Below are positions 5,217 to 62,900 of a stretch of DNA of 64,000 nucleotides, piece after piece (position 1 is the stretch's first letter; every line of letters begins with the position of its first letter). The DNA comes from Prevotella sp. oral taxon 475 (GTDB lineage: Bacteria > Bacteroidota > Bacteroidia > Bacteroidales > Bacteroidaceae). The notes under the pieces are model-generated. The model made no database searches. It had not been told where the DNA came from and saw only the letters and a program-made list of their open reading frames with translations. The translations under genes and the position numbers were made by a program. Location: contig NZ_CP072334.1 in the NCBI RefSeq assembly GCF_018127805.1, positions 434,001 through 498,000 of the forward strand, read 5' to 3'.

Positions 5217-5304
5217 CAAAAGCTAAGAAAACGTTGTGCGAAAACTAAGAAAATGGAGGTCAAAAGCTAAGAAAACGCAAGGCAAAAGCTAAGAAAATGC
5301 AGCC
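5217..5304. repeat. 22-bp intergenic repeat array A (four units, one orientation)
   Basis: Four back-to-back 22-bp units begin at 5217, 5239, 5261 and 5283. Each starts CAAAAGCTAAGAAAA (the second CGAAAACTAAGAAAA) and ends with a variable 7-mer of the form CGNNNNN or TGNNNNN. The array is in the 396-bp gap between two minus-strand genes. I see no gene or other clear signal in the rest of that gap. Confidence 0.92.
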
Positions 5305-5401
5305 GGCTTTCTATGCTTCTGATTTTCAATGTTTTATGAAATACTTCCGGAAGACTCGGACGGTCCTTTCGCAAAGGGCCGCAAGCAGAACCTTTCCACT
5401 C

Positions 5402-6298
5402 TTAGAAAGAGATGTCGAGACCGGCATCGACGGTGGTGTAATTCTTGCGGACGGGCACGATGGGAGCCGTGTCGTAGATGAGGCGATAGGTGCCACGAAC
5501 GCCGATCTTTGGCGTAATGCGATAGAGTAGGTCGGCGGCACCACCCCATCGGGCACTCTTGAGATAGCCGTCGGGCTTGCCTTGATGAATGGCTGTGGTA
5601 GTGAGCTCCCACCGGTCTCCGAGCGAATGTCTGAAACTCAGCGATAAATGACTTTTCACGCTGCGGCTATAGGCATGCGGGTTGGTGCCTGTGGGCGGAT
5701 CGGGATAGGCCCATTTCTCAAACTCATAGAAAAATCCTACGGCTGCAAAGAGCAGACAATGGGTGGAGTTCACGATTCGGTAGCGCGATTGTAAACCGGT
5801 AGAAACCTTGAACGTCATCCCTCTACTGCCTGCCCATTGCGACTCTACGTAAGGATAAACCTCAAAGGCATGGTGCAGCAAATAGCGATATTCGGCGTGA
5901 ACATGCCCGCCGCTCACGGTGATTTGCTTGCCATAGGTGGCAAATTCGAGTTTGTTGATGAGATTCACCACGCGGTTTCGTCCTATCAATAGGTTGAGAT
6001 TGGCCGTGTTTTTAAGGGTGAGCACATTCTCTTTCTCGGTTTTGAAATCGAGAACGGGCTGCAAGGAGCCCTGAATCGTTTTCGTACTGTCGATGTTCAT
6101 CGTTAAATTCTCCGAGAAAAGCATCTGTGCTTGTGCCGGAAATGATGCGACAAGACCGAATAAGAGATAAAGACATCGTTGCCTGATGGTCGACTTTTGC
6201 TTACCTGTTGTTCCGAATCGTCTTGCCAAACGGTTGTTAAGACGACGGCTTTCTGGCTTCTTGGGGGCTCTCAACCCTGTTGCTTGTTCCTGAATCAT
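5402..6298 (-). CDS. Outer membrane beta-barrel protein, DUF481-like
   Basis: 298 residues from the ATG at 6298. A longer open frame reaches 6454, but a TATCTTTG promoter element lies at 6345-6352 inside that extension, so transcription should begin after it. The start leaves an unusually long basic N-region of about 40 residues before the signal-peptide core (YLLFGLVASFPAQAQ). The mature part is a series of amphipathic strands ending in Phe (TTVDAGLDISF), with FKTEKENVLTLKNTANLNL and FRHSLGDRWELTT patterns as in the DUF481 (YdiY-like) outer-membrane family. Function is unknown; the barrel prediction is solid, the family assignment moderate. Confidence 0.7.
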   Translation of the reverse strand: MIQEQATGLRAPKKPESRRLNNRLARRFGTTGKQKSTIRQRCLYLLFGLVASFPAQAQMLFSENLTMNIDSTKTIQGSLQPVLDFKTEKENVLTLKNTANLNLLIGRNRVVNLINKLEFATYGKQITVSGGHVHAEYRYLLHHAFEVYPYVESQWAGSRGMTFKVSTGLQSRYRIVNSTHCLLFAAVGFFYEFEKWAYPDPPTGTNPHAYSRSVKSHLSLSFRHSLGDRWELTTTAIHQGKPDGYLKSARWGGAADLLYRITPKIGVRGTYRLIYDTAPIVPVRKNYTTVDAGLDISF

Positions 6299-6344
6299 TC
6301 TTTTTTTGCTTTCTGTTATTATTCGTTTTTGTTGATTTTCGCTG

Positions 6345-6352
6345 CAAAGATA
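6345..6352 (-). promoter_or_regulatory. -7 element of the DUF481-like gene
   Basis: TATCTTTG on the minus strand, 47 bp before the chosen start. The -33 element is weak (a TTTA about 18 bp upstream). This element decides the start codon of the gene. The remaining gap up to 6609 shows no clear plus-strand promoter for the next gene. Confidence 0.6.
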
Positions 6353-6609
6353 AGGGTATTTCGTTGGATAAACGGACGTTGGTGGCGATATGACCAAGTG
6401 TCGTTGTTTCGTCTCTCCGCACTCCTGTACAGGAGGCAGATGCCAAGTTGTCAAGTTCTCTGCGAGAGATTCTTCCCCCTTTTCTCTTCTCCTCCACTAC
6501 CTTTTTGCGTCAAGAACTTAACATTCTTTATATATTTTCTTTTCCCTCTTGACGCAAGTTTTCCTAAACTTGCCATTTAAAAGGCAAACATAACTTAACG
6601 AGACGAGAT

Positions 6610-7359
6610 ATGAAAAGAAAACAACTCTGGCTCATAGCCTTGGCAATGATCGTTGCGGGAACGGGATTTCAATCCTGCCGCGATGAGAACAATGACGATA
6701 GCCTGTCTTATCCTACAGCTCTCGTCACCGTAAAGCCCAATACGACCAACTCGTCGTTTACGATGCAACTCAACGACTCGGTGGTGTTGCTGCCCGCTAA
6801 CATCAAAGAGGCACCCTTCGGAAGTAAAGAGGTGAGGGCACTGGTCAACTATACTCTTGCCGAAGAGAATACGGCCCACAGCGGAAAGATGGTGAACATC
6901 AACTGGATCGATAGCATCCGCACCAAGAATATGGCTCCGACGCTGGGCGATAAGAATACGGCTACCTATGGAACCGACCCTCTCGAGGTGGTGAACGACT
7001 GGGTGAGCATTGCCGAAGACGGATACCTCACCCTGCGCTTTAGAACGAGATGGGGAGTGGGGGTTCGGCATTTGGTGAATCTTGTGCCCACCGGCGATCA
7101 GAAAGATCCCTACCAAGTGACGTTCTTTCACAACGCACAGAAAGATCTCTACGGACGAGTGGGAGATGGTATCGTGGCTTTCCGGCTCGATCGATTGCCC
7201 GATACGAAAGGTAAAACCGTGTGGCTCACCTTGAAATGGAACTCTTATAGTGGAATGAAAATGGCCAAATTCAAATACTGCACCCGAAAGGAGACCCACG
7301 CTTCTCACACCCACATGGCGGCAATGACGGCACCGGTGCAGACCAACAGAATAGACTGA
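6610..7359 (+). CDS. NigD-like lipoprotein
   Basis: 249 residues. The N-terminus is a lipoprotein signal (LWLIALAMIVAGTGFQSC, Cys 24 as the lipidated residue) followed by an acidic linker. The body has the two-domain layout of the NigD-like family: an N-terminal OB-like part (YPTALVTVKP, VRALVNYTL) and a C-terminal beta domain (WVSIAEDGYLTLRFRTRWG, then KTVWLTLKWNSYSG). NigD was named from a bacteriocin cluster of Prevotella nigrescens, but the family is widespread and its function is unknown. The ECF sigma factor begins two bases after this stop, so this gene heads a three-gene operon. Confidence 0.85.
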   Translation: MKRKQLWLIALAMIVAGTGFQSCRDENNDDSLSYPTALVTVKPNTTNSSFTMQLNDSVVLLPANIKEAPFGSKEVRALVNYTLAEENTAHSGKMVNINWIDSIRTKNMAPTLGDKNTATYGTDPLEVVNDWVSIAEDGYLTLRFRTRWGVGVRHLVNLVPTGDQKDPYQVTFFHNAQKDLYGRVGDGIVAFRLDRLPDTKGKTVWLTLKWNSYSGMKMAKFKYCTRKETHASHTHMAAMTAPVQTNRID

Positions 7360-10049: not shown

Positions 10050-11008
10050 CGAAATTGGCTCTTGTTCTGCCTTGTTACAATGAGGAGGAAGTGCTTGAGA
10101 CATCCGTTGCACGTCTCACCGAGTTGCTTCGCGGTTTGATTTCCGACGGAACACTCCACCCGGACAGTATGATGGTGTTCGTCAACGATGGTAGTCGCGA
10201 TCGCACTTGGCAACTCATTGTGCGCGCCAGCAGGTCGAATCGTCTCGTTCGAGGCATTCATCTGACACGAAACGTGGGGCATCAGAACGCCATCATGGCC
10301 GGAATGCTCACCGCACGGACGTGGGCTGACGTGGTGATTACCATCGATGCCGACCTGCAAGACGATCTCTCGGCCATCCCTCGCATGCTGGAACACTATC
10401 GCGAAGGTAGCGATATTGTCTACGGCGTGAAGGTTTCGCGTCGTGCCGACCCTGTTTTCAAACGGCTATCGGCCATGGCTTTCTACCGATTACAACAGAA
10501 AATGGGGGTAGACAGCGTGTTTAATCATGCCGACTTCCGACTGATGAGTCGCCGAGCACTTGACATATTGGCCGACTATGGTGAGCGAAACCTCTATCTA
10601 CGCGGACTGATCCCGTTGATAGGACTCCCGTCTGCCACCGTAGACGACGTGATTAGCGAGCGCACGGCAGGCACATCCAAATACACGCTCAAACGAATGC
10701 TCTCGCTGGCACTTGACGGAATCACCTCGTTTTCAGTTCGTCCCATTTACGGCATCCTCTATTTGGGGTGTTTCTTTCTGTTGCTCAGTCTGTTCATCGG
10801 TTTCTATGTACTGCACGCTCTCATTGTTCACACAGCCTATCCGGGCTGGGCTTCGCTCATGCTCAGCATGTGGTTCATCGGTGGTATTGTGCTTCTTTCC
10901 ATCGGTGTGGTGGGTGTTTACGTGGGAAAAATCTACACCGAGGCGAAGCATCGTCCGTTGTTCAACATCCAAGAGATCGTGGGTGGAGAAGAAGATTCCG
11001 AACTTTAA
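10046..11008 (+). CDS. GT2 glycosyltransferase of the polyprenyl-phosphate (DPM1/ArnC-like) type
   Basis: 320 residues. The GT2 nucleotide-binding start is LALVLPCYNEEEVL; VFVNDGSRDRTW and TIDADLQDDLSAIP (the DxD motif) follow, and RGLIPLIG plus the ERTAGTSKYTLKRM segment is characteristic of enzymes that move sugars onto polyprenyl phosphate. Two C-terminal membrane helices (LGCFFLLLSLFIGFYVL and WFIGGIVLLSIGVVGVYVG) anchor it. Together with the preceding deacetylase it resembles envelope-lipid modification pairs such as those adding aminosugars, but that comparison is only contextual. Confidence 0.9.
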   Translation: MTKLALVLPCYNEEEVLETSVARLTELLRGLISDGTLHPDSMMVFVNDGSRDRTWQLIVRASRSNRLVRGIHLTRNVGHQNAIMAGMLTARTWADVVITIDADLQDDLSAIPRMLEHYREGSDIVYGVKVSRRADPVFKRLSAMAFYRLQQKMGVDSVFNHADFRLMSRRALDILADYGERNLYLRGLIPLIGLPSATVDDVISERTAGTSKYTLKRMLSLALDGITSFSVRPIYGILYLGCFFLLLSLFIGFYVLHALIVHTAYPGWASLMLSMWFIGGIVLLSIGVVGVYVGKIYTEAKHRPLFNIQEIVGGEEDSEL

Positions 11009-11180
11009 GGAAAAAGCTTTTTCGTAGTAAGGAGTGAAAGAATAAGGAGAAAAAGAGTAAGTAGCAAGAAAGAAAAGAGTAAGGAGGGAAGTCATCAGAA
11101 GTAAGGAGATCGTCATAAAAAGACATTCTCTTGCTCTTGATGACTTCTCTCTTTCCTCTTTATCACTTCCTCCTCTTCTT
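11009..11180. other. Non-coding purine-rich then pyrimidine-rich tract at the left flank of the mobile element
   Basis: From 11010 to about 11110 the plus strand is nearly all A and G with repeats of AGTAAGGAG; from about 11125 to 11215 it is nearly all C and T. Arms GAAGTCATCA (11089-11098) and TGATGACTTC (11138-11147) form a perfect 10-bp inverted repeat across the switch. It might fold as a transcript end for the glycosyltransferase operon. No coding frame is credible. Confidence 0.6.
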
Positions 11181-11191
11181 CTTACAACCGA
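11181..11191 (+). repeat. Candidate left attachment repeat
   Basis: CTTACAACCGA, identical to 26822-26832. Joining the left flank to the sequence right of the second copy would place this 11-mer next to a 22-bp repeat array, as expected for an uninterrupted intergenic region. However, similar pyrimidine-rich strings occur elsewhere in this window, so chance similarity is possible. Confidence 0.4.
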
Positions 11192-11334
11192 CTCCTCCCC
11201 TCCTTACACGTAAAGATGATTTCTAAAACGTATCTAATTGAGAAAGAAGAAGTTACCTTATGATACAAACTAAACAGGTAACAATTTGGAAACGAGCGAA
11301 GTGCTTTCTGTCGCATGTTTCTACATCAACAAAG

Positions 11335-11388
11335 AACGCTTGTTATTCTATTTGCAAAGATAATCATTTACTTTGAATAACAAGCGTT
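11335..11388. terminator. Perfect 14-bp inverted repeat near the left end of the element
   Basis: AACGCTTGTTATTC (11335-11348) and GAATAACAAGCGTT (11375-11388) flank a 26-bp loop. On the plus strand the second arm runs into TTTTT, as in an intrinsic terminator, and on the minus strand it lies 70 bp after the relaxase stop. It may isolate the element from neighbouring transcription. The rest of the gap 11192-11460 also holds GTTACC/GGTAAC sites (11252 and about 11276) but no gene. Confidence 0.55.
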
Positions 11389-11460
11389 TTTGATAAGATT
11401 TTCGTTCATTTGCGTCATCATTGAGTTTTTTGGTGATTGGAAATAGAGAAGAGCTAGCTT

Positions 11461-12540
11461 TTATATACCTCTTCCTCTTTTCTTCTTTTTCTTGGCTTGG
11501 TTTCTGAGTTTTCGTTGCCATACCGTCTCAGCATAATCATCGCCATGTGTCTGTGGATTGATAAGTCCACCTGCTCCCGAAATTATTTCTTCAGCAGCAT
11601 TCAAGACAGTGCTTGCTACATTTCCTACGGCTTGTGCAATAGGTGAAGTTTCGTTTGCTTTTGTAGGCGGTGTGTACGAACGGCTGGGAGGAACAAGTTG
11701 ATAGGCTGTATCCGGTTGGGGTTTGCTCTTTTCCTGCTCGTGCGCCATTATTTGAGCTTTTGTCATTATCTCCTTTGTTTCGGCTTTATTGCCTGCTTCA
11801 AAGTTCTTTTGCAAAGAACGGTAGCCGAACTCCCTGCCGATTTCGGAAGCCTTGAAACATTGCCCGCCAAAGGAGAACTTCAAACCGTATACTTTGCCCT
11901 GCTTATTCTTCAAGCGTTCGATAGTTATACCACTCTTGTTAAGGTCGTAGAGAAACATGGAGTGTCCCGTGATGCCTGTGCCTTTGTATTTTTCAAGTAG
12001 AGCATAGCAAATCTTCTGTATTTGTTGCTTGGTCTGTTCTCTCGTAGGATTGGCTTTTGTTTTCTGATGCTTCCTCTCCGCCCTGACCTCCTTTGCGATA
12101 GTCAAGCCTTTCGAGCGGCTGATTTCCTCCGCCACTCTTGCTGCCCTGTTGCTTACAAAAGTGGTATCATAGACCTCCCCATACAGGCTGATGCGGTTGG
12201 CAATGATATGGATATGTCTGTTGTCGGTGTCCTTGTGTGCTACCGCCACCCATTGGTGTTTGTCAAGTCCCATTTGTTTGGCAAACAGATGGGCTATCCT
12301 CATAAGTTCTGACACAGGTAGCTTTCTTTCGTCTTGTGGTGCGATACCAATTTCAATGCGGAGGAACTTGTTCCTGCAACGTGTGTTGTAATCGCTGACC
12401 ACTTTCATTTCTTCATAGATAGCCTTCGGTTCTCTGCTGCAAAGGTTATGGAAGGCAAGCCGACTGCCGAGCTTGCCCTCTCTGAAAATATAATCCAAAG
12501 CCGTGCTTCCGTGCGCTATTGCCTTACACTTTCCTATCAT
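11461..12540 (-). CDS. Relaxase/mobilization nuclease
   Basis: 359 residues. This is the DNA strand transferase that nicks the origin of transfer. An N-terminal MIGKCKAIAHGSTALDYIF and the histidine cluster HKDTDNRHIHIIANR near residue 105 are the catalytic and metal-binding parts of Bacteroidota MobB/BmgA-type relaxases. The C-terminal third is a Lys-rich, Pro-rich tail ending KKKKRGRGI. The start overlaps the end of the mobC gene by 17 bases, so the two are translationally linked. No helicase or coupling domain is present, consistent with a mobilizable rather than self-conjugative element. Confidence 0.93.
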   Translation of the reverse strand: MIGKCKAIAHGSTALDYIFREGKLGSRLAFHNLCSREPKAIYEEMKVVSDYNTRCRNKFLRIEIGIAPQDERKLPVSELMRIAHLFAKQMGLDKHQWVAVAHKDTDNRHIHIIANRISLYGEVYDTTFVSNRAARVAEEISRSKGLTIAKEVRAERKHQKTKANPTREQTKQQIQKICYALLEKYKGTGITGHSMFLYDLNKSGITIERLKNKQGKVYGLKFSFGGQCFKASEIGREFGYRSLQKNFEAGNKAETKEIMTKAQIMAHEQEKSKPQPDTAYQLVPPSRSYTPPTKANETSPIAQAVGNVASTVLNAAEEIISGAGGLINPQTHGDDYAETVWQRKLRNQAKKKKKRGRGI

Positions 12541-12955
12541 TCTCCATTAGATTTAAGAGTTTAATAGCCCTTTCCTCAATGCGGTATTTTTGATTGAAGA
12601 AACGCTTAAATGCTTCCCTTGCCAGATAAGAAAGACTTTGGGTAATCAGTACCCATGCATCATCCTTTACCTTGATAAGATTGGAAATATGTGAGAAGAA
12701 GTAGGCCGCTCGTCTGAGTAGTTCGATGGCTTCCCTTTCATTGTCGGTCATCTTGGGAACAGCTGCCACTTCACCGTTAAGGAGTATCTCACGGCAGTAG
12801 TCTGAGAACTTCCGCCCTGTACTTTCCGCCTTTGACTTGATACGTTGCTTTTCCTCTAAAGTACATCTTGCCTTGATGAACTCCGTCTTGTTCATCCTCG
12901 CTTCTTCCTTACCTCGTTGCTGCCACTTGGCAGTCTTTCTATTATATCTGTTCAT
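12524..12955 (-). CDS. Relaxosome accessory protein, MobC family
   Basis: 143 residues. The N-terminal third is basic (KTAKWQQRGKEEARMNKTEF), followed by RCTLEEKQRIKSKAESTGRK, the ribbon-helix-helix-like segment of MobC proteins that bind near oriT and help the relaxase open DNA. The central part (AIELLRRAAYFFSHISNLIK) is the usual second conserved helix. A start at the internal Met 21 is possible. It overlaps the relaxase gene downstream and has 360 bp of non-coding DNA upstream, where oriT would be expected. Confidence 0.85.
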   Translation of the reverse strand: MNRYNRKTAKWQQRGKEEARMNKTEFIKARCTLEEKQRIKSKAESTGRKFSDYCREILLNGEVAAVPKMTDNEREAIELLRRAAYFFSHISNLIKVKDDAWVLITQSLSYLAREAFKRFFNQKYRIEERAIKLLNLMENDRKV

Positions 12956-13079
12956 ATAAGTTTCTTTGAAAGTTAATCATCGTAGATGATTTGTTATTGC
13001 TTAATTTCTGAACACTGACCGATGAGAACGGAGTGATTACGATCTAATCTTCCCGACAATTAAACGAGGGGAGCAAGCG

Positions 13080-13099
13080 CAGTTTGTGGGTACAAACTG
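13080..13099. other. Candidate oriT inverted repeat
   Basis: CAGTTTG (13080-13086) and CAAACTG (13093-13099) are perfect 7-bp arms around TGGGTA. A second short palindrome, GAATGCTATGCATTC, lies at 13160-13174. Both are in the 362-bp non-coding gap (12956-13317) just upstream of mobC, the usual place for oriT in Bacteroidota mobilizable elements. No nic site is recognisable with certainty. Confidence 0.4.
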
Positions 13100-13252
13100 A
13101 CGTCTTGCAATGTCAGCTAACGTTCCATTTACGCATAAAGCGTTTTGTCGTCCAAAAATGAATGCTATGCATTCAGAAGATTAACTGTGTTCGTGGCATT
13201 CCCACCATTCAATGTGTTCAGTAAAAATCTATTGTTGGTACTACCCTAAAAC

Positions 13253-13304
13253 GGTCGAGGATTTTGAGTGAAAGGGGCGTTCCTTTTTCTAAAAACCCTC
13301 GACC
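13253..13304 (-). terminator. Long inverted repeat behind the DUF3408 gene
   Basis: GGTCGAGG (13253-13260) and CCTCGACC (13297-13304), each flanked by A/T runs that extend the pairing with few mismatches. It starts 14 bp after the DUF3408 stop on the minus strand and the 3' arm is followed by GTTTTAGG. It may be a terminator, or part of the transfer origin. Confidence 0.5.
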
Positions 13305-13317
13305 ATTTTTCTGTTGT

Positions 13318-13782
13318 TTACAGCTTCCTCCATTTCTCTACATCCTCACCGTATTCCTCCAAATGGTTGCGCACGATGTTCTCCACGAAACTTGAGAGGT
13401 TGCTGCCCCTGTCACCCAACCTGCGCACGATGAGGTTCGCACGTTCCTGTGTTTCCTTACTCAGGTAAACCGCTTTTCTCTCGCTTAGCTTTGCGGGAAC
13501 GAGGAACGCTTGCTTGTATGCTTCGAGTGTCTCTTTTCTCATCTTGGCACTGATGCGTCTTTGAACGGTTGCATTCTCTGTATGCTGTGCAGGCTCGGAT
13601 GGCGTGGCATGCTCTATGATATGCTCTGTTTCTTGTTGTTTTTGCTCTTGAGTATTTCTCTTTCCTTTTGCCCGAAACTCAGCGACGGTCTGTTCACTTG
13701 AACTTTTAGCTGGGCTTATACCAAAAGTTTCTCCGATGAAACGATCTATTTCTTCTATGTTTCTTTTTTCCTTTTTCATCAC
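13318..13782 (-). CDS. DUF3408-family mobile-element protein
   Basis: 154 residues. The first 70 are polar and probably disordered (many Gln, Glu, Thr). The C-terminal half (KQAFLVPAKLSERKAVYLSK, then ERANLIVRRLGDRGSNLSSF and VENIVRNHLEEY) is the DUF3408 core, which resembles a ribbon-helix-helix DNA-binding fold and is found mainly in Bacteroidota conjugative and mobilizable elements. Its place upstream of mobC and the relaxase suggests a role in relaxosome assembly or regulation. The exact function is not known to me. Confidence 0.78.
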   Translation of the reverse strand: MMKKEKRNIEEIDRFIGETFGISPAKSSSEQTVAEFRAKGKRNTQEQKQQETEHIIEHATPSEPAQHTENATVQRRISAKMRKETLEAYKQAFLVPAKLSERKAVYLSKETQERANLIVRRLGDRGSNLSSFVENIVRNHLEEYGEDVEKWRKL

Positions 13783-14543
13783 TCTATCTTATTTTAAGTC
13801 TGACTTGTTTTACCGTTTCCAAACTTTTTCATCCTTCTTCTTACTACATACTATTCTGTGATAAGTAATTGATAATCAGTAATGCTTGATAGTGTAGGGC
13901 GATACTACGCATTTTACTACATTTGGCTACTACAAGTTTGAAGGAATGGAGATGGGGAAGCTTTCCCCGTTGCTTATACTTGCCTGCATCTGCGTTCTTT
14001 TTCATTATTCCCTTGAATTGGTTTCCAAGAGTGAAGTTAGGGTGAGAATGCGTAACTTCCAAGCATTCAGAGTCTTCTTGCATAATGTTGCACCTGTCTG
14101 CTGTAAAATTCTTAGGGAAACGGGCAGGCAAGAAGAGCATTTATTGCCTCATTAAGCAAAAAATGGGTGACAGGAAAGAAAGGTTAGCAGAAATATGATT
14201 GCCGTTGTTTGCTTTCAGATGCACTCTTTTGCTTTGATTACCTTATTAACCTCATTTGTGCAGTGGTAAGAACATCAATCTGTCTCTTTTGTCCTTGTCA
14301 TAGCGCTACAAGCTGCCACTTGAATGAAAAGCGATAGAATGAGAAATATCCGATATTAATTTTGCATCGAAAAAAGAAGACGGGGCAGGAAAACGCAAAT
14401 GCGAACCGATGATGCAGATTGCCCTTTTCCTTATTCTTCCCTACACTTCCCTGCTGTTCTCCACTACTTTGAGAGGTGCACGCACGCCATTATCTTTGCC
14501 GATGGAAACAGGAAAAATTTGAAATAACAAATAATAACAAAAT
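13783..14543. other. 761-bp gap between the mobilization genes and the excisionase-like genes
   Basis: I find no convincing gene. Two overlapping opposed frames of 98 (13844-14140 minus) and 69 (13946-14155 plus) codons exist but lack family features or a start signal. The only clear element is the promoter at 14468-14498 at the right end. Confidence 0.5.
14468..14498 (+). promoter_or_regulatory. Promoter of the two HTH genes
   Basis: TTTG at 14468-14471 and TATCTTTG at 14491-14498, with exactly 19 bp between, a full match to the Bacteroidota consensus. Confidence 0.8.
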
Positions 14544-14840
14544 ATGATTATGAATTATTATGTCATTACGGAAACCAATTGGGCAAAGCTTCGGGATGAA
14601 ATTTTGAGCCTTGCGGAATGCTGTCACAAGGCTTTTGGAGAGAAGAGTAAGCACACGGACTGGCTGTACAACAGAGAAGTGTGCCGGCTGTTGAACATCA
14701 GCAAGCGCACCTTGCAGCATTATCGCGATACGAGTGTGCTGCCGTTTACGCAAATCGGGCACAAGTGCTATTACAAGCGCGAGGATGTGGAAAGTTTGCT
14801 ACTTTCAAAGACGAATAACTCTAAAAACAGACAGATATGA
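14544..14840 (+). CDS. Excisionase-like helix-turn-helix protein 1
   Basis: 98 residues. The C-terminal half carries a MerR/excisionase-type winged HTH: WLYNREVCRLLNISKRTLQH, then YRDTSVLPFTQIGHKCYYKR and a DVESLL helix. Such proteins in Bacteroidota elements bend DNA during excision or control the mobilization genes. The start could also be the ATG at 14550. The end overlaps the start of the following HTH gene by four bases. Confidence 0.85.
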   Translation: MIMNYYVITETNWAKLRDEILSLAECCHKAFGEKSKHTDWLYNREVCRLLNISKRTLQHYRDTSVLPFTQIGHKCYYKREDVESLLLSKTNNSKNRQI

Positions 14841-15133
14841 TGGAAACTGCAAGAGATTTGAACATGGAGACGGACGAGATACAGCTGGTCGTCTCGGCAT
14901 TGAGAGGTGTGGGGAAACGGATCATGGAAGTGGCACAGACACACAAGCCACTCTTTGCTGGCGAACATTTCCTCACGGGCAAGGAAGTGTGCGAGCGGCT
15001 GTATATCAGTCCCCGTACCTTGCAGGACTACCGCGACAGAAAAATTATCCCCTACACGCAATTTGCAGGGAAGATACTCTACAAGACTTCGGACTTGGAA
15101 AGGATGCTGGAGAAGAATTATAAGGGTATTTAG
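14837..15133 (+). CDS. Excisionase-like helix-turn-helix protein 2
   Basis: 98 residues, the same length and layout as the preceding protein and clearly its paralogue: FLTGKEVCERLYISPRTLQD is aligned to the first HTH helix pair and YRDRKIIPYTQFAGKILYK to the wing. The N-terminal 45 residues are helical and differ between the two. Coupled translation with its neighbour suggests they act together, perhaps as a heterodimer at the attachment sites; this is inferred. Confidence 0.85.
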   Translation: MMETARDLNMETDEIQLVVSALRGVGKRIMEVAQTHKPLFAGEHFLTGKEVCERLYISPRTLQDYRDRKIIPYTQFAGKILYKTSDLERMLEKNYKGI

Positions 15134-15244
15134 AGAACTATCGAAGGGTACAACGATTTTCCAAGGAGATAAACAACTATTGCATTTGTTATTGAACTTA
15201 AAAATATAAAGTTGGAATGACACTATTAAATAGAATACGAACAA

Positions 15245-15276
15245 TTGCTTTATTAATTATAAAATCCTTAACTTTG
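15245..15276 (+). promoter_or_regulatory. Promoter of the helicase/HEAT module
   Basis: TTG at 15245-15247 and TAACTTTG at 15269-15276, spaced 21 bp, 31 bp before the helicase start. The module therefore has its own promoter, separate from the HTH genes. Confidence 0.65.
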
Positions 15277-15306
15277 TAGAATAAATGGTTTCTAAAGTAA
15301 GTCGTT

Positions 15307-18300: not shown

Positions 18301-18600
18301 AGTTATCATTGGAGGCATAATGCTATAGAGTTATTAAAGCATATGAACCGTAGAAATAGCACTCGACTTACGCAAGGAGGACCTTCACGCTTTGAAAAAG
18401 GTGGTGATAATGAATTACTGATAATCCAAAATATGCTATCATCGAGTTATTGCGATATTGAATTCCATATATATGTAGTTCAACCAGGAATAGAAAAGAA
18501 TAAATTAGTCAACAGCCCAGGTTCATTGTCACTACTTGGCGCAACGGACTTGTTGTTAAAGAGAACGGGGAATGAATTTTATATAATCACTAACGAATAA
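15307..18600 (+). CDS. Large superfamily II helicase with possible C-terminal nuclease domain (candidate defence protein)
   Basis: 1097 residues, AT-rich compared with the flanking chromosome. An N-terminal region of about 130 residues is of unknown type. The helicase core follows: LRPPQIGALHSIL near 137, Walker A MPTGTGKT at 162-169, DEAHH from 278, LLFTATPFRNDGG near 304 and QFIGRFTRT from 461. Residues 540-900 match nothing I recognise. Near the C-terminus, Asp 953 (ASDIIAIK) and FELYHCKFSS with Glu 970 and Lys 975 resemble a PD-(D/E)XK-type nuclease core, followed by GGRLKDLYEVCGQAQRS. Helicase-nuclease fusions of this size on mobile elements are often anti-phage or restriction factors. 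The helicase call is firm; nuclease and defence are inference. The next gene starts directly after its stop codon. Confidence 0.85.
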   Translation: MCNLFPDEQVAVDFSVKIPIFIGKNKKTYYIGKEKGILKKYEGNAFSGYEFHTIHGFVYFLSKNKDKYPTESYNAVFYLQLEKEQELTLEAIQSCKKKLLVGKHPSVSKIVSSWYNGFQYKQEKQNESGTIVQYGLRPPQIGALHSILAHWSISNKSALVVMPTGTGKTETMLCLSIANQNEKTLVIVPTDSLRTQISNKFIELGILKTEPFEIVANSVLYPKVSVLKTTIETVEDAKKILDANVIVSTPQILTNLLKTGKSNILNLIVQQCNNLIVDEAHHIAAKTWKEIKLKFEVAEKPVLLFTATPFRNDGGRIEGEIIYNYPLSLAQRDKYYEKITFIPIVDFNPATADEKIAEKAINTLKRDLEAGYDHILMARVDERKKAEEIYEQIYKKHSKYSPVLIHSGISKVSQREILEGIKEKRHRIIVCVDMLGEGFDLPQLKICAMHEMHKNITTSFQFIGRFTRTTGSNLGTATVIANIVDNRFKGVLNELYRKDSDWDKIISQSNEDIIGSIVKEESFFKNFSDVPIPHKIPLRNIMPAMSTVVFKLYDSNVFWHPEKYIDYFKNKKYETVAVEHTKKNLQVIIARNTEKVAWGKIDDLINTEYDLYIAYLNPEQKLLYINSSNNGSTHDKLAEALVGKNISLYNESDIYRVLHNVFQLELFNLGLKSHLDGPISFTMYAGNGIVKGLSEIDKGMHSSNLFGTGYEDGEKITIGCSNKGRVWTKLVKSIPDYCEWCDKIGSKLLDERIDTKNIFDFIQKPERISTFPSGKVPISIKWNEKFYYDPLSAIDDSNLLIDHNIELVAYTSNTIDFDIITGNSISSYKLELDEDKNGRGYKYSLIKGNPIIVSQRKESKDIIDLFFEYPPIIWFQDNSKMYNDLFFLFNYKSPIFDTKKILVYNWDGVDITKESQKKTKQEDSIQYRILELLKKESEYDIIFDDDDANEASDIIAIKGYQSEHNKLIFELYHCKFSSNKKPGGRLKDLYEVCGQAQRSYHWRHNAIELLKHMNRRNSTRLTQGGPSRFEKGGDNELLIIQNMLSSSYCDIEFHIYVVQPGIEKNKLVNSPGSLSLLGATDLLLKRTGNEFYIITNE

Positions 18601-19149: not shown

Positions 19150-19223
19150 CAATGGGATTTATCCAATCCACGAGTTCTGTTTACTTATAAACTTGCAACT
19201 AAGTTGTTGAAATAAAGATTGCA

Positions 19224-20024: not shown

Positions 20025-20033
20025 AAAAAAACA

Positions 20034-20567: not shown

Positions 20568-20627
20568 ACAAACAATAGAAATCTTATAATAAGGCTAATA
20601 AAGAAACGTGGAAGATAAGAAAAAAGT

Positions 20628-21593: not shown

Positions 21594-21668
21594 ACTACTA
21601 AAACAGAAATCGATGCAATCAACCTGTTTAGAACATTACACACACTAACATTAAAGGGAAAATAAACG

Positions 21669-22713: not shown

Positions 22714-22769
22714 AGGAAAATTTGATAAGAAAGAAACGGCATGACTATTGAGAAAAGGTCGTGAGATAT

Positions 22770-22812
22770 AAAGAACTTGTTCCATTAAGTACAGAGCAAG
22801 TTCTTTCTGTTT
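22770..22812 (+). terminator. Terminator behind the methyltransferase pseudogene
   Basis: AAAGAACTTG (22770-22779) pairs with CAAGTTCTTT (22797-22806) and is followed by CTGTTT. It lies 57 bp after the old stop codon and would end the cargo transcript. Confidence 0.6.
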
Positions 22813-22900
22813 AATCTGCTTCAAGTTCCGTTGTTTATCGGATAAATTAATTTATTTTTTCTTAAACTACTTTATTGTATGGAGTTAGATAAACTCGGAA

Positions 22901-23359: not shown

Positions 23360-23384
23360 CTCGTTAAAAGTTTCGGTTATATTG

Positions 23385-23392
23385 CAAAGATA
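23385..23392 (-). promoter_or_regulatory. -7 element of the GNAT gene
   Basis: TATCTTTG on the minus strand, 25 bp before the chosen ATG; TTG about 23 bp further upstream is a possible -33 element. Confidence 0.55.
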
Positions 23393-23575: not shown

Positions 23576-23579
23576 TGTA

Positions 23580-50761: not shown

Positions 50762-53700
50762 TTAGAAGTTAAATTTTAAGTTCAGACCGAAGCTCCGAGA
50801 CGAAGGAAGGGTAAACATGTCCACTCCCTGCCAGCCGTTTCCGGTTCCGAGAGACACGTCCGGATCCATCGGAGCATCTTTATAGAAGAAGAAAAGGTTA
50901 CGACCGATGAGCGAAGCAGTGAGGTTTTTGCCATAGCCCAGAAGGTTACGGAAGGTGTAACCCAACGAAAGTTCACGCATCCGCACGTTGGTAGCCTTGT
51001 AAACATACAGTTCGTTGGCATACTGAGAGTTGAAATTGGTGGCTCCCACGGTGGTATAGAACTTCTTCGCGTCGTATTCCACTCCTTCGAACACAACCTT
51101 ACCGGCATTGCGAGCTGCTCCCGAGCGTTCGGAAACTCCCCAACCATCGAGCGTAGCCTCCGTCATGGAGAGCACCTTTCCACCCAACTTACTGTCGATG
51201 AGGAACGACAGCGTGAAGTCTTTATAGTTAAAGGTATTGCTCCAGCCCATGTTTACTTTGGCATTCATGTCGCCCACGTACTTCATATCTTTCATTCCGT
51301 CGCCGCCCAGACTGGGAGCACCGCTGTTGACCACCGGTTTCCCATCGCTGCCGCGTTTGATTTGCCGCACGTAAAGGTCGCCATAGTGTCCGCCCTTTTT
51401 GAGAATCACCTTCGCACCGCCATAGTCTGCGAGTGTCAGTCCATCAGAGAGTCCGTCGACAAGCTCCTTTATCTTATTCGAGTTATAGGCCATGTTGAAG
51501 CGAGTCACCCAGCTGAAGTCCTTATTGAAGTCCTGTCGCCACGAAGCACTGAGTTCAAAGCCGCTGTTTTGCACGTTGCCGGCATTTACATATTGCTGGC
51601 GGAGCCCCGTTTCCCAAGGAGCTTCCACGGCAAAGAACTGGTTCTTGGTGTTGGTTTTATAATAGGTGAGATTCACTTCCAGACGATTATCGAAGAACAT
51701 ACCGTCCAAGCCCACCTCGATAGAGTGGCTCTTTTCCGGTTTCAACGTAGTGAACGGAGCCTTAGAAGGCGGAGTGAGTGAACCTAAAGAGCCCAATGTG
51801 TATCTGGGGTTGCTCATAAATACGGGCACATCGTTACCCACGATAGAGTAAGAAGCACGAATCTTGAGCATGTTTACTTGCTTTCCGAAGTGAACAAACT
51901 TGTCGAGCAGCACACTGGTGCCCACAGAAGGATAGAAAAACGACATTCCGTTGGTGAAAGCCAGTGCCGACGACCAGTCGTTGCGGGCCGTAACATCCAC
52001 GAAGAGTGCGTCTTTATAGCCGAACTGTGCCGTTGCAAAGATGGCGTTCAGGCGTTTATCGGTGCGTGAGGGAACGACAGACATCTGGTAATAGTTGGAC
52101 GGCATGAAGACATTCGGATAATAAGCATTGCCCGAGGGTTTGCCATCCGTCATCACAAACTTAGAGTGTCCCCAGCCGATGAGATAGTTTCCTGTGCCCT
52201 TGGTTTTGGTAAAGCTGGTACCGGCGGTCACCGACAAGGCATAGATGTCTTTCCAAGTGTGGTTGTAAGAAGCGAGAAGGTCGCCGTAGAACTGTTCGTT
52301 GAACGTCTGTGAGTCCTTCATTGTGCCCATTTTATCACGTCCTCCCTCGCTCGAGGCATGCTGATTGAGCACCCAATGGTCGTCTCCGCGTTCGTAGCGC
52401 AGACGTCCTGTGAGCGACAGGCCTGCCATGATGTCGTATTTCACGGTTGCGCCGAAGTCGTAACGGTTGCGATCGTTGATGGGCACTTGTCGGTTCGTCA
52501 TCCAATACGGGTTGGAGAACTGCTCTTGGGCCACATTGGTCCATCGTTGCACGTTTGTATTGAGGGTGGGATCGTAGGCTTCGAATTTGTTTTTGTATCC
52601 ATCCCAGTCTTCACCTCTTGGGAAGAGATAGGCACCCGTGAGCGGATTGCTCAGGAAACCCGAGGCAGCCTGGTTCTTGATGTGCTGTTTGTTCAATCCT
52701 GCGCTTACGTCTACGTGGATGTTGTCAAGCACATTGAAGCCCACTTTTGCCAAAAGATTGTGGCTATTGTAAGTATTGCCCGGTGTGATGCCGTTAGAGC
52801 GCACATTGGCATAGGAGAAATAAGAAGAAATCTTTTCTGTTCCGCCTGCGATAGCAATCGAATTGTTCGTGGTGAAGCCCGTGCGGAAGAAGTCTTTGGC
52901 ATAGTTTTTAGCTGCAGTGCCCAACGGGTTGCCCCAGCTAAAGGTGCCGCTGTTGCTCATGCCATACTGGTTTTGGAACTTCGGTAGCACCAATGGCGTT
53001 TCCATCGTCGTGTTGCTCGACACCGTGATGCCCACTTTGCCCGCCTGGGCCGACTTGGTTGTAATCATGATGGCACCGTTAGCGGCCACTGCTCCGTAAA
53101 GGGCTGCAGCCGAAGCACCCTTCAAAAGCGTGATCTGAGCAATGTCATCCGGATTGATGGTAGACATGGCATCGCCTCCGTCATGACCTCCGCCATAGTT
53201 TCCGCTTACCTGCGAATCGGAGATATTCATCATCAAAGGCACACCATCGAGTACAATCAGCGGCTGGTTGCTACCGCTAATCGACTTGCTTCCACGGAAC
53301 AGAATTTTCGAGGCTCCGCCTGCACCCGTCGAGTTGGGCGTAATCGAGAGGCCTGCGCTCTTTCCCTGAAGCGAGTTGATCATGTTGATGTTCTTGATTT
53401 CGTTCACGTCTTTTCCGCCAACGGTCTGTGCGGCATAAGCAAGCGACTTGGCTTCGCGCTTGATGCCTAAGGCTGTGACCACCACTTCGGTCAAAACCTC
53501 CGAGTCGTCGTTGAGTGTGAAGTCGAGTTCGCGTCCGTTCCACACGGCCTCTGCACTTTTAAAGCCGATGAACGAAACCTGAATCACCGCTCCCGCTTTG
53601 ACGTTAGAGAGCGAGAAATTGCCTTCCACATCCGTTGTTGTGCCGCGCTGTGTGCCCTTCACAACCACGGAAGCACCGGTCACAGGTTCACCTTTGGCAT

Positions 53701-53845
53701 CTCTTACCACACCTTTGCATACACTGTTTTGTTGTGATGCCTGCGGTAAAGGCATACCATGGGCCCCTGCAAACGCTGCGTTTGCAGACAATGCCGACAA
53801 AGCCAGCATGAGGCCTACAATTTTCAATGGTCTATACATAAACAC
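50762..53845 (-). CDS. SusC/RagA family TonB-linked outer membrane transporter
   Basis: 1027 residues with a signal peptide (LKIVGLMLALSALSANAAFA). A carboxypeptidase-regulatory-like domain (VCKGVVRDAKGEPVTGASVV, about 42-120) is followed by the TonB box region (LTEVVVTALGIKR), the plug (NINMINSLQGKSAGLSITPN) and SKSISGSNQPLIVLDGVPL, and a 22-strand barrel ending in FGLNLKFNF. No STN domain, so it does not signal to an anti-sigma factor by itself. The start may be the second Met two codons later. It takes up the ligand presented by the SusD-like partner. Confidence 0.95.
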   Translation of the reverse strand: MFMYRPLKIVGLMLALSALSANAAFAGAHGMPLPQASQQNSVCKGVVRDAKGEPVTGASVVVKGTQRGTTTDVEGNFSLSNVKAGAVIQVSFIGFKSAEAVWNGRELDFTLNDDSEVLTEVVVTALGIKREAKSLAYAAQTVGGKDVNEIKNINMINSLQGKSAGLSITPNSTGAGGASKILFRGSKSISGSNQPLIVLDGVPLMMNISDSQVSGNYGGGHDGGDAMSTINPDDIAQITLLKGASAAALYGAVAANGAIMITTKSAQAGKVGITVSSNTTMETPLVLPKFQNQYGMSNSGTFSWGNPLGTAAKNYAKDFFRTGFTTNNSIAIAGGTEKISSYFSYANVRSNGITPGNTYNSHNLLAKVGFNVLDNIHVDVSAGLNKQHIKNQAASGFLSNPLTGAYLFPRGEDWDGYKNKFEAYDPTLNTNVQRWTNVAQEQFSNPYWMTNRQVPINDRNRYDFGATVKYDIMAGLSLTGRLRYERGDDHWVLNQHASSEGGRDKMGTMKDSQTFNEQFYGDLLASYNHTWKDIYALSVTAGTSFTKTKGTGNYLIGWGHSKFVMTDGKPSGNAYYPNVFMPSNYYQMSVVPSRTDKRLNAIFATAQFGYKDALFVDVTARNDWSSALAFTNGMSFFYPSVGTSVLLDKFVHFGKQVNMLKIRASYSIVGNDVPVFMSNPRYTLGSLGSLTPPSKAPFTTLKPEKSHSIEVGLDGMFFDNRLEVNLTYYKTNTKNQFFAVEAPWETGLRQQYVNAGNVQNSGFELSASWRQDFNKDFSWVTRFNMAYNSNKIKELVDGLSDGLTLADYGGAKVILKKGGHYGDLYVRQIKRGSDGKPVVNSGAPSLGGDGMKDMKYVGDMNAKVNMGWSNTFNYKDFTLSFLIDSKLGGKVLSMTEATLDGWGVSERSGAARNAGKVVFEGVEYDAKKFYTTVGATNFNSQYANELYVYKATNVRMRELSLGYTFRNLLGYGKNLTASLIGRNLFFFYKDAPMDPDVSLGTGNGWQGVDMFTLPSSRSFGLNLKFNF

Positions 53846-54114: not shown

Positions 54115-54198
54115 CCATCTCTTAGCTTTTGCATCTTGTTTTCTTAGCTTTCGCCGTGCGTTTTCTTAGCTTTTAGCGTGCCAAAGCTAAGAGATGGA
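54115..54198. repeat. 22-bp intergenic repeat array G (minus, minus, minus, plus)
   Basis: Same order as array E: cores CCATCTCTTAGCTTTTGC, TTTTCTTAGCTTTCGCCG, TTTTCTTAGCTTTTAGC and then GCCAAAGCTAAGAGATGG. The outer pair is an inverted repeat of about 18 bp with one mismatch. It precedes the sigma promoter. Confidence 0.9.
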
Positions 54199-54452: not shown

Positions 54453-55037
54453 ATGGACAATCTTTACCGCGAACTACTGTTGGTGGCCAAAGACAGCGAA
54501 TTGGCTTTCAATGGCTTTATGCACAGGTTTTCCAATGTGCTCTATTGTCATGCCTATGGCATTCTGGGGAGTCGCGAGATGGCAGAAGAGGTGGTGAGCG
54601 ACACGTTTTTCGAGGCTTGGAAAACTCGGAAACACCTTGTGGAGATGGACAACGTGCGTGGCTGGCTCAGTAGGGTGGTCTATCGAAAATCGGTAGACTA
54701 TCTGCGGCGAGAGAAGAAACGGCTGAAGCCTATCCATGTGGAAGACTTCGGGATAGAGGCTTTCTCTTTTCCCGATATGTGCACACCGTGCGACACACTC
54801 ATCTCTTCCGAAGAACTCTCTGCCATCAACGCCGCCATCGAAACACTGCCCCCGAAGTGCAAGTACGTGTTTTTCCTGGCCAAAGTGGAACGTTTACCCT
54901 ATCAGGAGATTGCCGAGATGCTGAGCATTTCTCTCTCCACGGTGAACTATCACGTCAATTATGCCCTTCAGGCATTGAAAAACCGACTTCTCAAACAGCA
55001 CGACGAGGAGAGACAATTCAAAAAGAAAGAACGATGA
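54453..55037 (+). CDS. ECF sigma factor of the FecI/RpoE type paired with FecR
   Basis: 194 residues from the ATG at 54453. A TTG three codons earlier is possible. Region 2 is FMHRFSNVLYCHAYGILGSR and EEVVSDTFFEAWKTRKHLVE; region 4 is LPPKCKYVFFLAKVERLPYQ with EIAEMLSISLSTVNYHVNYA as the DNA-recognising helix-turn-helix. The stop overlaps the FecR start by four bases. Together with FecR and a SusC carrying an STN domain downstream, this is the classic trans-envelope regulatory unit of Bacteroidota. Confidence 0.95.
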   Translation: MDNLYRELLLVAKDSELAFNGFMHRFSNVLYCHAYGILGSREMAEEVVSDTFFEAWKTRKHLVEMDNVRGWLSRVVYRKSVDYLRREKKRLKPIHVEDFGIEAFSFPDMCTPCDTLISSEELSAINAAIETLPPKCKYVFFLAKVERLPYQEIAEMLSISLSTVNYHVNYALQALKNRLLKQHDEERQFKKKER

Positions 55038-61692: not shown

Positions 61693-61701
61693 CCCCTATT
61701 T

Positions 61702-61761
61702 ACGGCGGGTGGGACCATCGAAAGGGCTCGATGCCCTGCGATGCGCCTACCCGCCGTTTTC
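61702..61761 (+). terminator. Terminator or attenuator inside the second SusC/SusD locus
   Basis: ACGGCGGGT (61702-61710) and ACCCGCCGT (61749-61757) pair perfectly, with an inner CATCG/CGATG hairpin, and run into TTTTCT. It lies 10 bp after the SusD stop, so the genes behind it may be expressed at a lower level. Confidence 0.8.
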
Positions 61762-61882
61762 TATCAAGTTCATTCACACATTCAGGAAAACAGAAAAAAG
61801 GCTATCGTTCGTCACGAAAGCGAACGGGCGAAGCCACTCGAAAATTCATCGATTCAACAACTTATTTATATATATATTTACA

Positions 61883-62785
61883 ATGCGACATTTTCTTCAC
61901 CCCTCTCTCATCCTCTCCACCCTTGCCTTTTGTGCCCTGCCCATGATGGGATGCGGTGGCAGCAACGGGTCTACGGGGAACATTCCCAACTTCCAACCCA
62001 AACCCGAAACGGAGACCTACAAGTATGAAAAACCCGCCGGCACACTGCGGCTGATGACCTACAACAGCTACTACTGCAAGAGCAACACAGGCGCACCCGC
62101 CTTTACCGACGAGAATACGCGAGCCTTTGGCGAGGTGATTAAGGCCCTGAATCCCGACGTTATCGCCATTCAAGAGCTCGACAGTGCCAGCCGTGAGCGT
62201 TTCAAGCGTTATCTTCTGCAAGACATCCAGCGAGTGGCGGGCAGCGACTACGAGATTGTTTTCGGTTCGGCAGCCAAGTACGACGGTGGTAAAATCGGCT
62301 GTGGTGTGATGTATAAAAAGAGCTTGCAGCCCAAGTCCATCCGTCAGGTAGAACTTCCTGGCAAAGAGGCGCGCAAGCTGGTTATCATCTCTTTCCCGCA
62401 GTTCACCTTCGTTGGCACGCACCTCGACTTAGAGGCGCGCCATCGGCAGAGCAGCATCGACCTGCTGCAACACGAGCTGCCGGCCTATGACACGACTCCC
62501 ATCTTCTTTGCAGGCGACCTCAACGATAGTCCCACATGGAAGCCGGAAGACTCTGCTTTCCCCAAGATACAAACGCTTTTCAACATCATCAGTGCCACGA
62601 CGGGCAGTCTTCCCGGTCAGCCCAACGTCACGATCGACTACGTATTGGTGGACAAAAAGCACGCCTCGCAGGTGGAAGTGAAGCAGACCAGCGTCGTATC
62701 GAAACTTCAGATCGATGGCACAACGAAAGACATCTCCACCGTTTCCGACCATTATCCCGTCTTTGTAGATGTCAAGTTGAAGTAG
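61883..62785 (+). CDS. Lipoprotein of the endonuclease/exonuclease/phosphatase family
   Basis: 300 residues from the ATG at 61883, which opens a lipoprotein signal (LILSTLAFCALPMMGC, Cys 23) followed by a Gly/Ser linker; the upstream extension lies in the terminator region and lacks a leader. EEP motifs: LRLMTYNSYYCKSN, VIAIQELDSASRERF, GGKIGCGVMYKK, FVGTHLDLEARHRQS, FFAGDLNDSP and TVSDHYPVFVDV. EEP lipoproteins are found in several Bacteroidota glycan loci; the substrate may be a phosphodiester or a sulfated/phosphorylated glycan. Part of the same locus as the GH89. Confidence 0.88.
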   Translation: MRHFLHPSLILSTLAFCALPMMGCGGSNGSTGNIPNFQPKPETETYKYEKPAGTLRLMTYNSYYCKSNTGAPAFTDENTRAFGEVIKALNPDVIAIQELDSASRERFKRYLLQDIQRVAGSDYEIVFGSAAKYDGGKIGCGVMYKKSLQPKSIRQVELPGKEARKLVIISFPQFTFVGTHLDLEARHRQSSIDLLQHELPAYDTTPIFFAGDLNDSPTWKPEDSAFPKIQTLFNIISATTGSLPGQPNVTIDYVLVDKKHASQVEVKQTSVVSKLQIDGTTKDISTVSDHYPVFVDVKLK

Positions 62786-62815
62786 TTGTACGTCGACAAG
62801 TTGACACCTCATTTT

Positions 62816-62900
62816 TCAAAAGATAAGCTTTTGACCTTCAAAACATGGTCTTTTGACTGTCAAAACACGGTCTTTTGACCTTCAAAAGATAAGCTTTTGC
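62816..62900. repeat. 22-bp-period array H of short palindromes
   Basis: Four 19-bp near-palindromes start at 62816, 62838, 62860 and 62882, separated by 3-bp CCT or CTG. Units are TCAAAAGATAAGCTTTTGA (first and nearly last) and TCAAAACATGGTCTTTTGA or its one-base variant. The period is 22 bp as in arrays A-G but the core differs. It lies between the EEP lipoprotein and GH89 genes. Confidence 0.9.

Follow-up and report, generated by a model that had tools for sequence, protein, structure and literature searches.

Intergenic tetrads of mirror-image DNA sites on an 11-bp lattice in an oral Prevotella, with a private word and a geometry found in relatives

The question raised by this locus of Prevotella sp. 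oral taxon 475 is what kind of element its short, evenly spaced intergenic arrays represent. The window, which is the whole 64,000-nucleotide stretch analysed, holds six arrays of one family where the earlier note had placed them, with frames starting at 5217, 26831, 32381, 36221, 38362 and 54115, and none overlaps a called gene (0/6). Array 1 (5217-5299, plus strand) has four 17-bp units at a 22-bp period, all of the type termed ka below and head to tail; its weakly conserved flank (5300-5343, minus strand) resembles two more degenerate 22-bp-phased units in a flank profile inflated by the choice of orientation. Array 2 (26831-26913; kk-like, ak, ak, ka) lies 0.3 kb from a tyrosine-integrase gene (25282-26511), array 3 (32381-32463, plus strand; ka, ka, ka, kk) 27 bp past an amine oxidase gene (30980-32353), array 4 (36221-36303; bk, ak, ak, kb, its end half-sites forming an inverted repeat) 44 bp past a GH92 gene (33882-36176), and array 5 (38362-38444; ka, ka, bk, ak) 12 bp past an Exo_endo_phos_3 gene (37366-38349). 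Array 6 (54115-54197; bk, ak, ak, kb) occupies the divergent gap between genes for a TonB-dependent receptor (50762-53710) and a sigma-70-family factor (54453-55037). Unit orientations are mixed in four of these six. The range first noted ran to 62,900, and a real array does end there: array 7 (62817-62899) has four units of the same 17+5 geometry at 22 bp, built on another word (CAAAAGATAAGCTTTTG in the outer units, CAAAACAYGGTCTTTTG in the inner ones).

Each unit joins a 17-bp dyad to a spacer of 5 bp, half-sites recur at 11-bp intervals, and most arrays are four mirror-image sites at a pitch of 22 bp. Three classes of half-site are distinguished, CAAAAGCT (k), CRTTTTCT (a) and CCATCTCT (b), and the census of 65 four-unit arrays gave ka 94, ak 57, kk 55, kb 33 and bk 21. 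At least one half is classed k in all 260 of these units, a rule that the frame-based search did not impose, aa, ab and bb units having been permitted at detection. The 15-bp core CAAAAGCTAAGAAAA had been taken as constant between loci, with about 7 variable bases; every unit has a k half in one of several half-site combinations, five types over 260 units, and therefore the core is not constant and the unit may lie either way. It is merely the commonest asymmetric form of the dyad, and the dyads are separated by 5 variable bases. An inner unit flipped relative to both neighbours was seen in 0/65 four-unit arrays against 15.7 expected (0/2000 shuffles that low), the flip rule being broken by one five-unit array, 1992475, which is outside the 65-array statistics. 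The strict period that the earlier note described holds: spacing is 22 bp in 212/213 cases when the frame-based search allows 21-23 and 43-45 bp, and in a period-free scan the dyad-frame distance is 22 bp for 172/180 neighbouring matches lying no more than 50 bp from each other. So does the usual number of four, found in 63 of 71 chains, the others having five units (5), three (1) or two (2). The period is near two helix turns in being 2 x 11 bp, but is slightly more than two turns of B-DNA. Exact two-turn phasing in relaxed B-DNA would call for 21 bp, and the 22 bp found here count against it. CRISPR arrays, with near-identical repeats and long unique spacers, are a poor match for 17-bp units that vary in their half-sites and are separated by 5 bp.

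The phenomenon is larger than the earlier note saw. The core, with up to two mismatches, has 22 matches in the window against 0.24 expected (100 dinucleotide shuffles), and the inner 13-mer occurs 345 times in the whole genome (184 plus, 161 minus) against 0 for its reversed control; the earlier note's refuting condition, a core no commoner than chance, is clearly not borne out. The frame-based search found 71 chains in a sample of 864 kb of the 2.56-Mb genome, from which we extrapolate to roughly 200 arrays in total. A weak chain at 1097041, whose sequence looks like a variant-word 22-bp array of greater length, was removed, and frames 1479819, 778671 and 1738123 were reset by hand, giving 70 arrays, 65 of which enter the four-unit statistics (1992475 is among the five left out). 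Besides the k/a/b family the genome carries one or more other word families and isolated odd arrays; the k/a/b and CGGGAG families show no significant spatial exclusion of each other (p 0.15). Arrays of the k/a/b family occur more densely in the half surrounding position 0 (49 in 464 kb vs 21 in 400 kb, p 0.008), origin and terminus being guessed from the GC skew of the sampled stretches.

Beyond this genome the word disappears and the geometry persists. The exact paired word has 281 matches in the host and 0 in 397 congeners, and gave no match in the viral contigs searched for it. Congener G076 nevertheless has a similar array density and the same geometry with a different word. In lag scans, run at thresholds of 9.5 to 11 (8.5 gave mostly noise) with low-complexity matches filtered out, lag 22 gave 87 matches in the host, 80 in G076, 7 in G070, 5 each in G084 and G086 and 21 in 80 named loci, against 0 in E. 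coli and 0 in shuffled host DNA. The named kin compared include Prevotella, Leyella, Bacteroides and others, and lag 22 is the peak in several other Bacteroidales samples.

Avoidance of genes by the arrays also stands on the larger sample, with 0/68 judged arrays overlapping a called gene (2 more lie at stretch edges) and 91/92 arrays of a motif-free scan outside called genes, the calls coming from a custom hexamer script, not a published caller, that misses genes such as the 1097-aa frame 15307-18600. Setting aside those not placeable in a gap of <1500 bp between two called genes (14/92 host, 19/100 G076 arrays), the 78 host arrays fall in tandem (43), divergent (19) and convergent (16) gaps, near random placement. 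They avoid the last stretch before genes: 4.9% of host arrays lie 60 bp or less from a 5' end against 19.4% under the null, and in G076 0 against 16.9%. Among intergenic regions of 250-1500 bp, 68/172 in the host and 73/189 in G076 hold an array, so that in two diverged congeners about 40% of the sampled mid-sized intergenic regions have one.

The explanation we prefer, at a probability of about one half, is that the arrays act in cis as double-stranded DNA and are the targets of a multimeric, cooperatively binding protein, one whose specificity differs between species and whose role is perhaps architectural. Each array would offer four dyads, that is eight half-sites on an 11-bp lattice, and in the simplest form four dimers of one putative DNA-binding protein would line up next to one another along a single face of the helix. 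Constant pitch and symmetric sites are what a cooperative-binding array should have, and this reading is favoured because of the exact phasing, the dyad units, the strict half-site rule and the lack of any excess likeness within arrays, where unit identity is 14.21 of 17 bases against 14.25 in shuffles. The earlier note's suggestion of a cooperatively binding protein thus gains from the phasing, the dyads and the half-site rule, and both binding and its cooperativity are still read from the sites, for a candidate binder. Its specificity would have shifted between species along with the sites. An architectural or insulating role, rather than control of one regulon, is suggested because all gap orientations are used, about 40% of the 250-1500-bp gaps hold an array and the 60 bp immediately ahead of start codons are avoided. 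Against this explanation, several word families coexist in one genome, and therefore one protein cannot serve all of them by sequence.

Mobile-element, RNA-hairpin and terminator readings suit the evidence less well. The first, somewhat unlikely in our judgement, would make the arrays old dispersed repeats of MITE or REPIN type, moved by a dyad-recognising transposase or recombinase and now decayed. Dispersal between genes, avoidance of the promoter-proximal 60 bp, a private word, positions unlike those in G076 and several word families per genome all agree with it, as does a flank weakly conserved on one side, as in an element end. The earlier note's alternative, REP-like repeats dispersed by a transposase, is the weaker of its two suggestions and draws on the same ground: a slight excess of spacer likeness is present (57 array pairs agreeing in at least 11 of their 15 spacer bases vs 38 +- 6.5 under a stratified null in which whole spacers were shuffled between like half-site neighbours, 2/200 shuffles being as high; the 57 pairs at 11-12 vs about 22 given by a column shuffle come from a null that is too loose), which therefore leaves room for old copying. 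A 22-bp array also lies no more than about 1.1 kb from each host Y1_Tnp gene, for the first a tetrad at 0.6 kb and for the second a variant-word array about 1.1 kb off; by eye, both genes lie amid another palindromic repeat. Recent transposon copies were rejected, as all pairs of the 65 four-unit arrays include no near-identical spacer pair; the best match is 12 of 15, where the usual null maximum is 13. Against mobility in general, units are no more alike within arrays than between them, orientation is array-specific, and spacers have diverged while spacing has not drifted. Y1_Tnp, with 2 matches in the host, 3 in G076 and 2 in G070, was not found in G084 or G086, both of which bear arrays.

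Operators of an ordinary though very large regulon are an improbable alternative. Dyads in intergenic DNA would suit it, and the conserved-flank side of an array faces a gene 5' end somewhat more often than not (43/68); however, divergent, tandem and convergent gaps are used at near-random rates, the promoter-proximal 60 bp are avoided, and none of 23 array-bearing host 5' ends shares its pairing with the G076 orthologue (0/23). Array-adjacent gene ends coincide between the host (G000) and G076 in 6/40 cases vs 25/215 (odds ratio 1.34, p 0.35), and a post-hoc split by 3' ends (p 0.027) is not relied on. Positional conservation was rejected, being seen in hand-picked cases only (an array 3' of GH92 in 7/80 named loci at a score of at least 10, the lag being 21 at 2 loci, 23 at one and 25 at another; amine oxidase with an array in 2/9 orthologues) and not in the systematic comparison. 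Positions are unconserved overall between the two genomes, a point that weighs against the preferred explanation, and any function must therefore be independent of particular genes over that distance.

RNA-level elements, whether hairpins, terminators or stabilisers of mRNA 3' ends, seem very unlikely. The four mixed-orientation window arrays do fold into strong hairpins (z -5.3 to -7.6), the odd-word array at 62817-62899 folds as well (z -3.2), and host arrays lie nearer 3' ends than random positions do (median 104 vs 186 bp; 223 vs 263 in G076). But in the two window arrays with head-to-tail units folding does not exceed that of shuffles (z +0.75 and +1.50), divergent gaps hold 19/78 host and 12/81 G076 arrays, and the sole Rfam match in the window at gathering scores is a tRNA. 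Intrinsic terminators, with a stem and T-run at 3' ends, were rejected on the same 19/78 arrays in divergent gaps and the unfolded head-to-tail arrays; a promoter element at a fixed position was rejected on the placement of the arrays. Least credible are passive minisatellites from local tandem duplication, which may account for single arrays elsewhere, given near-identical-unit period-22 arrays in some relatives (e.g. L073, L148) and the 23-nt minisatellite BrickBuilt of P. gingivalis (PMC4596501), but are contradicted for the k/a/b family by the absence of excess likeness within arrays, by four units in 63/71 chains with one word across 70 sampled arrays, and by a preference for lag 22 over unrelated words.

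Our search of open-access PMC papers found no paper on such arrays, which point to a putative, undescribed genome-wide protein-docking system. Tentatively, and with less assurance than for the protein sites themselves, we propose a cis-code of the Bacteroidales in which intergenic dyad tetrads on an 11-bp half-site lattice keep one geometry throughout the order. The word would change from species to species, together with a DNA-binding protein that evolves fast, binds cooperatively and serves to organise or insulate the chromosome. If a protein does bind, it would rank as a major chromosome-associated factor of a bacterial group common in gut and mouth, and the relatives would provide a natural series of variants that change the word and keep the geometry, making protein-DNA coevolution directly testable. 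Period-22 arrays in such genomes should not all be taken for ordinary minisatellites.

Among known systems, BIMEs and REPINs consist of palindromic units in mixed orientation. REP elements (PMC3733652) are short palindromic intergenic units, species-specific and present in many copies. The arrays resemble this group in being high-copy (345 13-mer matches), short, palindromic, intergenic (0/68 in genes), species-specific and of mixed orientation. Unlike REP, BIME and REPIN-RAYT systems, they keep a 22-bp lattice of usually four units, lack near-identical copies and need just one good half-site in each unit, and Y1_Tnp was not found in two array-bearing congeners. Plasmid iterons and centromere repeats of the ParR/parC type share short, cooperatively bound repeats whose pitch is constant at about one or two turns of the helix, but form one cluster per replicon, where the extrapolation here is to some 200 dispersed chromosomal arrays. 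The sites of Noc, SlmA and MatP (matS) are single short palindromes spread over the chromosome; our arrays are likewise dispersed, with more k/a/b arrays per kb in the half surrounding position 0, but are intergenic tetrads with a species-private word. BrickBuilt of Porphyromonas gingivalis (PMC4596501) is a minisatellite/MITE of 23 nt, spacer-less, with 1 to 22.8 repeats at 19 loci, indels of 0-6% within elements, a leader, a tail and inverted-repeat ends. It shares with our arrays a Bacteroidales host, a strictly intergenic position, a tandem unit of similar length, species restriction and distinct flanks, whereas the arrays described here are 22-bp tandems of dyads spaced by 5 bp, mostly in fours, at a number of loci some ten times greater on extrapolation, with indel-free spacing in 212/213 cases and weak flank conservation on one side only.

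The six arrays that the earlier note had reported in the window (at 5217, 26831, 32381, 36221, 38362 and 54115) are real, and their 15-bp core, at up to 2 mismatches, is far more frequent there than expected (22 matches vs. 0.24). Tandem Repeats Finder gives a period of 22 at five of them, all except the mixed-orientation array at 38362, and also at 62815-62899. Across the single contig of 2,560,308 bases, of which the window spans 434001-498000, the inner 13-mer AAAGCTAAGAAAA occurs 345 times, its reversed control never. An 864-kb sample of the genome, made up of the window and 40 evenly spaced stretches of 20 kb, holds 71 chains, with four units in 63 (the number described earlier as usual), five in 5, three in 1 and two in 2.

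The core itself is one form only of a palindromic dyad unit, with one half swapped; some units are the palindrome CAAAAGCTTAGCTTTTG. The half-sites are classed as k (CAAAAGCT), a (CRTTTTCT) and b (CCATCTCT). Each unit comprises two 6-bp arms in inverted orientation around five central bases, plus a spacer of 5 bp, so that half-sites follow at 11-bp steps; the variable stretch reported between cores does exist, but it is 5 bp rather than about 7, with a bias towards C-A-n-T-G. A weight-matrix scan that imposed no period gave 180 neighbouring pairs at most 50 bp apart: 136 on the same strand at 22 bp, 24 minus-plus at 20 bp, 12 plus-minus at 24 bp and 8 at other distances, the 20- and 24-bp values following from a 22-bp pitch with 17-bp dyad units read from the centre. 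The period is as strict as had been claimed: in a half-site chain search permitting 21-23 and 43-45 bp, 212 of 213 spacings are exactly 22, and the lone exception, of 45 bp, links what is presumably a chance match. At least one half is classed k in all 260 units of the 65 four-unit arrays. An inner unit is flipped relative to both neighbours in none of these (15.7 expected; none of 2000 shuffles gave so low a value), and minus-plus neighbours outnumber plus-minus by 17 to 3; the five-unit array at 1992475, outside the four-unit count, violates the flip rule. Pitch, symmetry, one good half per unit and the usual unit number are observed features of the arrays. About 44 bp of flank on one side is weakly conserved in phase with the array and resembles two decayed units, a signal inflated because array orientations were chosen to maximise it. 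Purine-rich GGAGTAAGGAGGAAAGTAGTAAG-type tracts lie within 60 bp past the opposite end in 12 of 70 sampled arrays, on one side.

Genes were called with our own hexamer caller, and the claim that the arrays never enter them is borne out, with 0 of 68 inside a called gene (2 further arrays were unjudged); in a motif-free scan, 91 of 92 arrays here and all 100 in the relative G076 are clear of called genes. In both genomes the arrays fall into gene contexts nearly as randomly placed ones would: 43 tandem, 19 divergent and 16 convergent among 78 placed arrays (null.62/.22/.16), and 42, 12 and 27 among 81 in G076 (null.55/.20/.25). The 60 bp preceding starts are depleted (4.9% vs. 19.4%; G076, 0 vs. 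16.9%), and 68 of 172 intergenic regions of 250-1500 bp hold arrays, as do 73 of 189 in G076. GC skew in the sample suggests an origin near position 0, and the chromosome half around it is about twice as dense in arrays (49 in 464 kb vs. 21 in 400 kb, p 0.008), a weak result. Three endonuclease/exonuclease/phosphatase-family genes in the window (3953-4972, 37366-38349 and 61883-62785) each adjoin an array, perhaps by chance, and an HU-family gene (PF00216) at 38823-39095 lies 0.4 kb from array 38362. The region at about 11000-26500, which encodes a DUF3408 protein together with two tyrosine integrases, is probably a mobile island and holds no arrays.

The word is private to this genome; a lag of 22 recurs in most Bacteroidales samples. 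Exact paired-core matches number 281 here and 0 in 397 congeneric genomes, with none in the named genome collection (where the organism's own kin may be absent) or in viral contigs; for the unpaired 13-mer the maximum is 3 matches per genome among 60 others of the family. The motif-free scan, which scores similarity among four 17-mers, direct or inverted, at lags 16-35 (score at least 10.5), peaks at lag 22 in most Bacteroidales samples: 87 in our sample (11 at the next-best lag), 80 in 1.0 Mb of G076 (next best 2), and 5, 7 and 5 in the relatives G084, G070 and G086. The relative G063 (55 kb) gives one at each of lags 22 and 23; E. coli K-12 (200 kb) gives none at lag 22 and single ones at 18, 24 and 32; our DNA shuffled in 500-bp blocks gives 0 throughout. 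The 80 named loci give 21 at lag 22, 6 at lag 21 and 0-1 at others, the loci with lag-22 arrays including Bacteroides xylanisolvens, B. congonensis, B. muris, Leyella stercorea and Parabacteroides species; intergenic position is unproven there, since open frames of about 80-130 aa cross the array in several of the 21. Some relatives also have lag-21 arrays (L109 at 9046, with no open frame across, and L120 at 7506). The G076 units have a symmetrised profile of about YAATTTGMNKCAAATTR, and a word from them has 83 matches in G076 and 6 in the relative G343, the remaining 396 genomes having no more than 3 apiece. A second tetrad family in our genome, with the word CGGGAGRTSAYCTCCCG, has 9 arrays in the 864-kb sample (262-2119 kb; stretches L035, L038, L041, L044, L045, L048, L061 and L063), and single arrays carry still other words, one at window 62817. 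Other repeats in the window are a 41-bp tandem repeat of about 9 copies adjoining tRNA-Arg (44641-45006; period 41 is the second commonest among 15-45 bp in the sample, at 31 possibly overlapping TRF rows), an 8/24-bp repeat of AGTTGACG type clear of called genes (577-671), and a pyrimidine-rich tract of TRF period about 22 that looks unlike the dyad arrays (11127-11183).

Our preferred explanation is a multimeric DNA-binding protein that would bind cooperatively, for instance as four dimers on one helix face, and whose specificity may drift jointly with its sites; the protein, its cooperativity and its role are what we infer. A common consensus with little or no genealogy, diverged spacers and fixed spacing is what binding-site selection would be expected to leave. 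The arrays may descend from old copying: spacer pairs at least 11/15 alike are in slight excess (57 vs. 38 +- 6.5, a level reached in 2 of 200 stratified shuffles), but no pair among 65 arrays is nearly identical (best spacer match 12 of 15 bases, shuffles mostly 13). As to the transposase-spread REP-like element that had been proposed, a 22-bp array lies in our genome within about 1.1 kb of each of two Y1_Tnp (RAYT-like) genes (44270-44611, L219; 1098172-1098513, L220), a proximity that could be chance given the array density; the transposases are not a constant partner, with 0 matches in G084 and G086. By eye, both genes are embedded in a different palindromic repeat, of ACCAACCGC.. GCGGTTGGTCTGTTGG type. 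A function at the RNA level, for which the folding of mixed-orientation window arrays (z -5.3 to -7.6) and, moderately, of the odd-word array (z -3.2) would speak, is unlikely because neither of the two head-to-tail window arrays folds (z +0.75, +1.50) and 19 of the 78 placed arrays lie in divergent gaps. There is no sign of local duplication, asymmetric units within an array being 14.21/17 identical against 14.25 when shuffled.

Array positions are not conserved between this genome and G076, which counts against a simple functional account. Among 255 comparable gene ends from 139 reciprocal best hits with G076, array-adjacent ends coincide in 6 of 40 cases, as compared with 25 of 215, which gives an odds ratio of 1.34 (p 0.35); for ends with at least 150 bp on both sides the figures are 6 of 21 and 17 of 44. 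Every one of the six coincidences falls at a 3' end, a split made post hoc (p 0.027). Orthologues of GH92 and amine oxidase genes have a same-side array in some species and none in others.

No description of such arrays was found in the open-access PMC literature, and novelty is provisional since the search covered open-access papers only. PMC5771137 and PMC3733652 deal with P. gingivalis resequencing and REP families, respectively. The nearest system in this literature is BrickBuilt of Porphyromonas gingivalis (PMC4596501), a minisatellite within a MITE that occupies 19 loci, where it has from 1 to 22.8 repeats; its repeat is of 23 nt and spacer-less, whereas the present arrays have a 22-bp pitch and 5-bp spacers.
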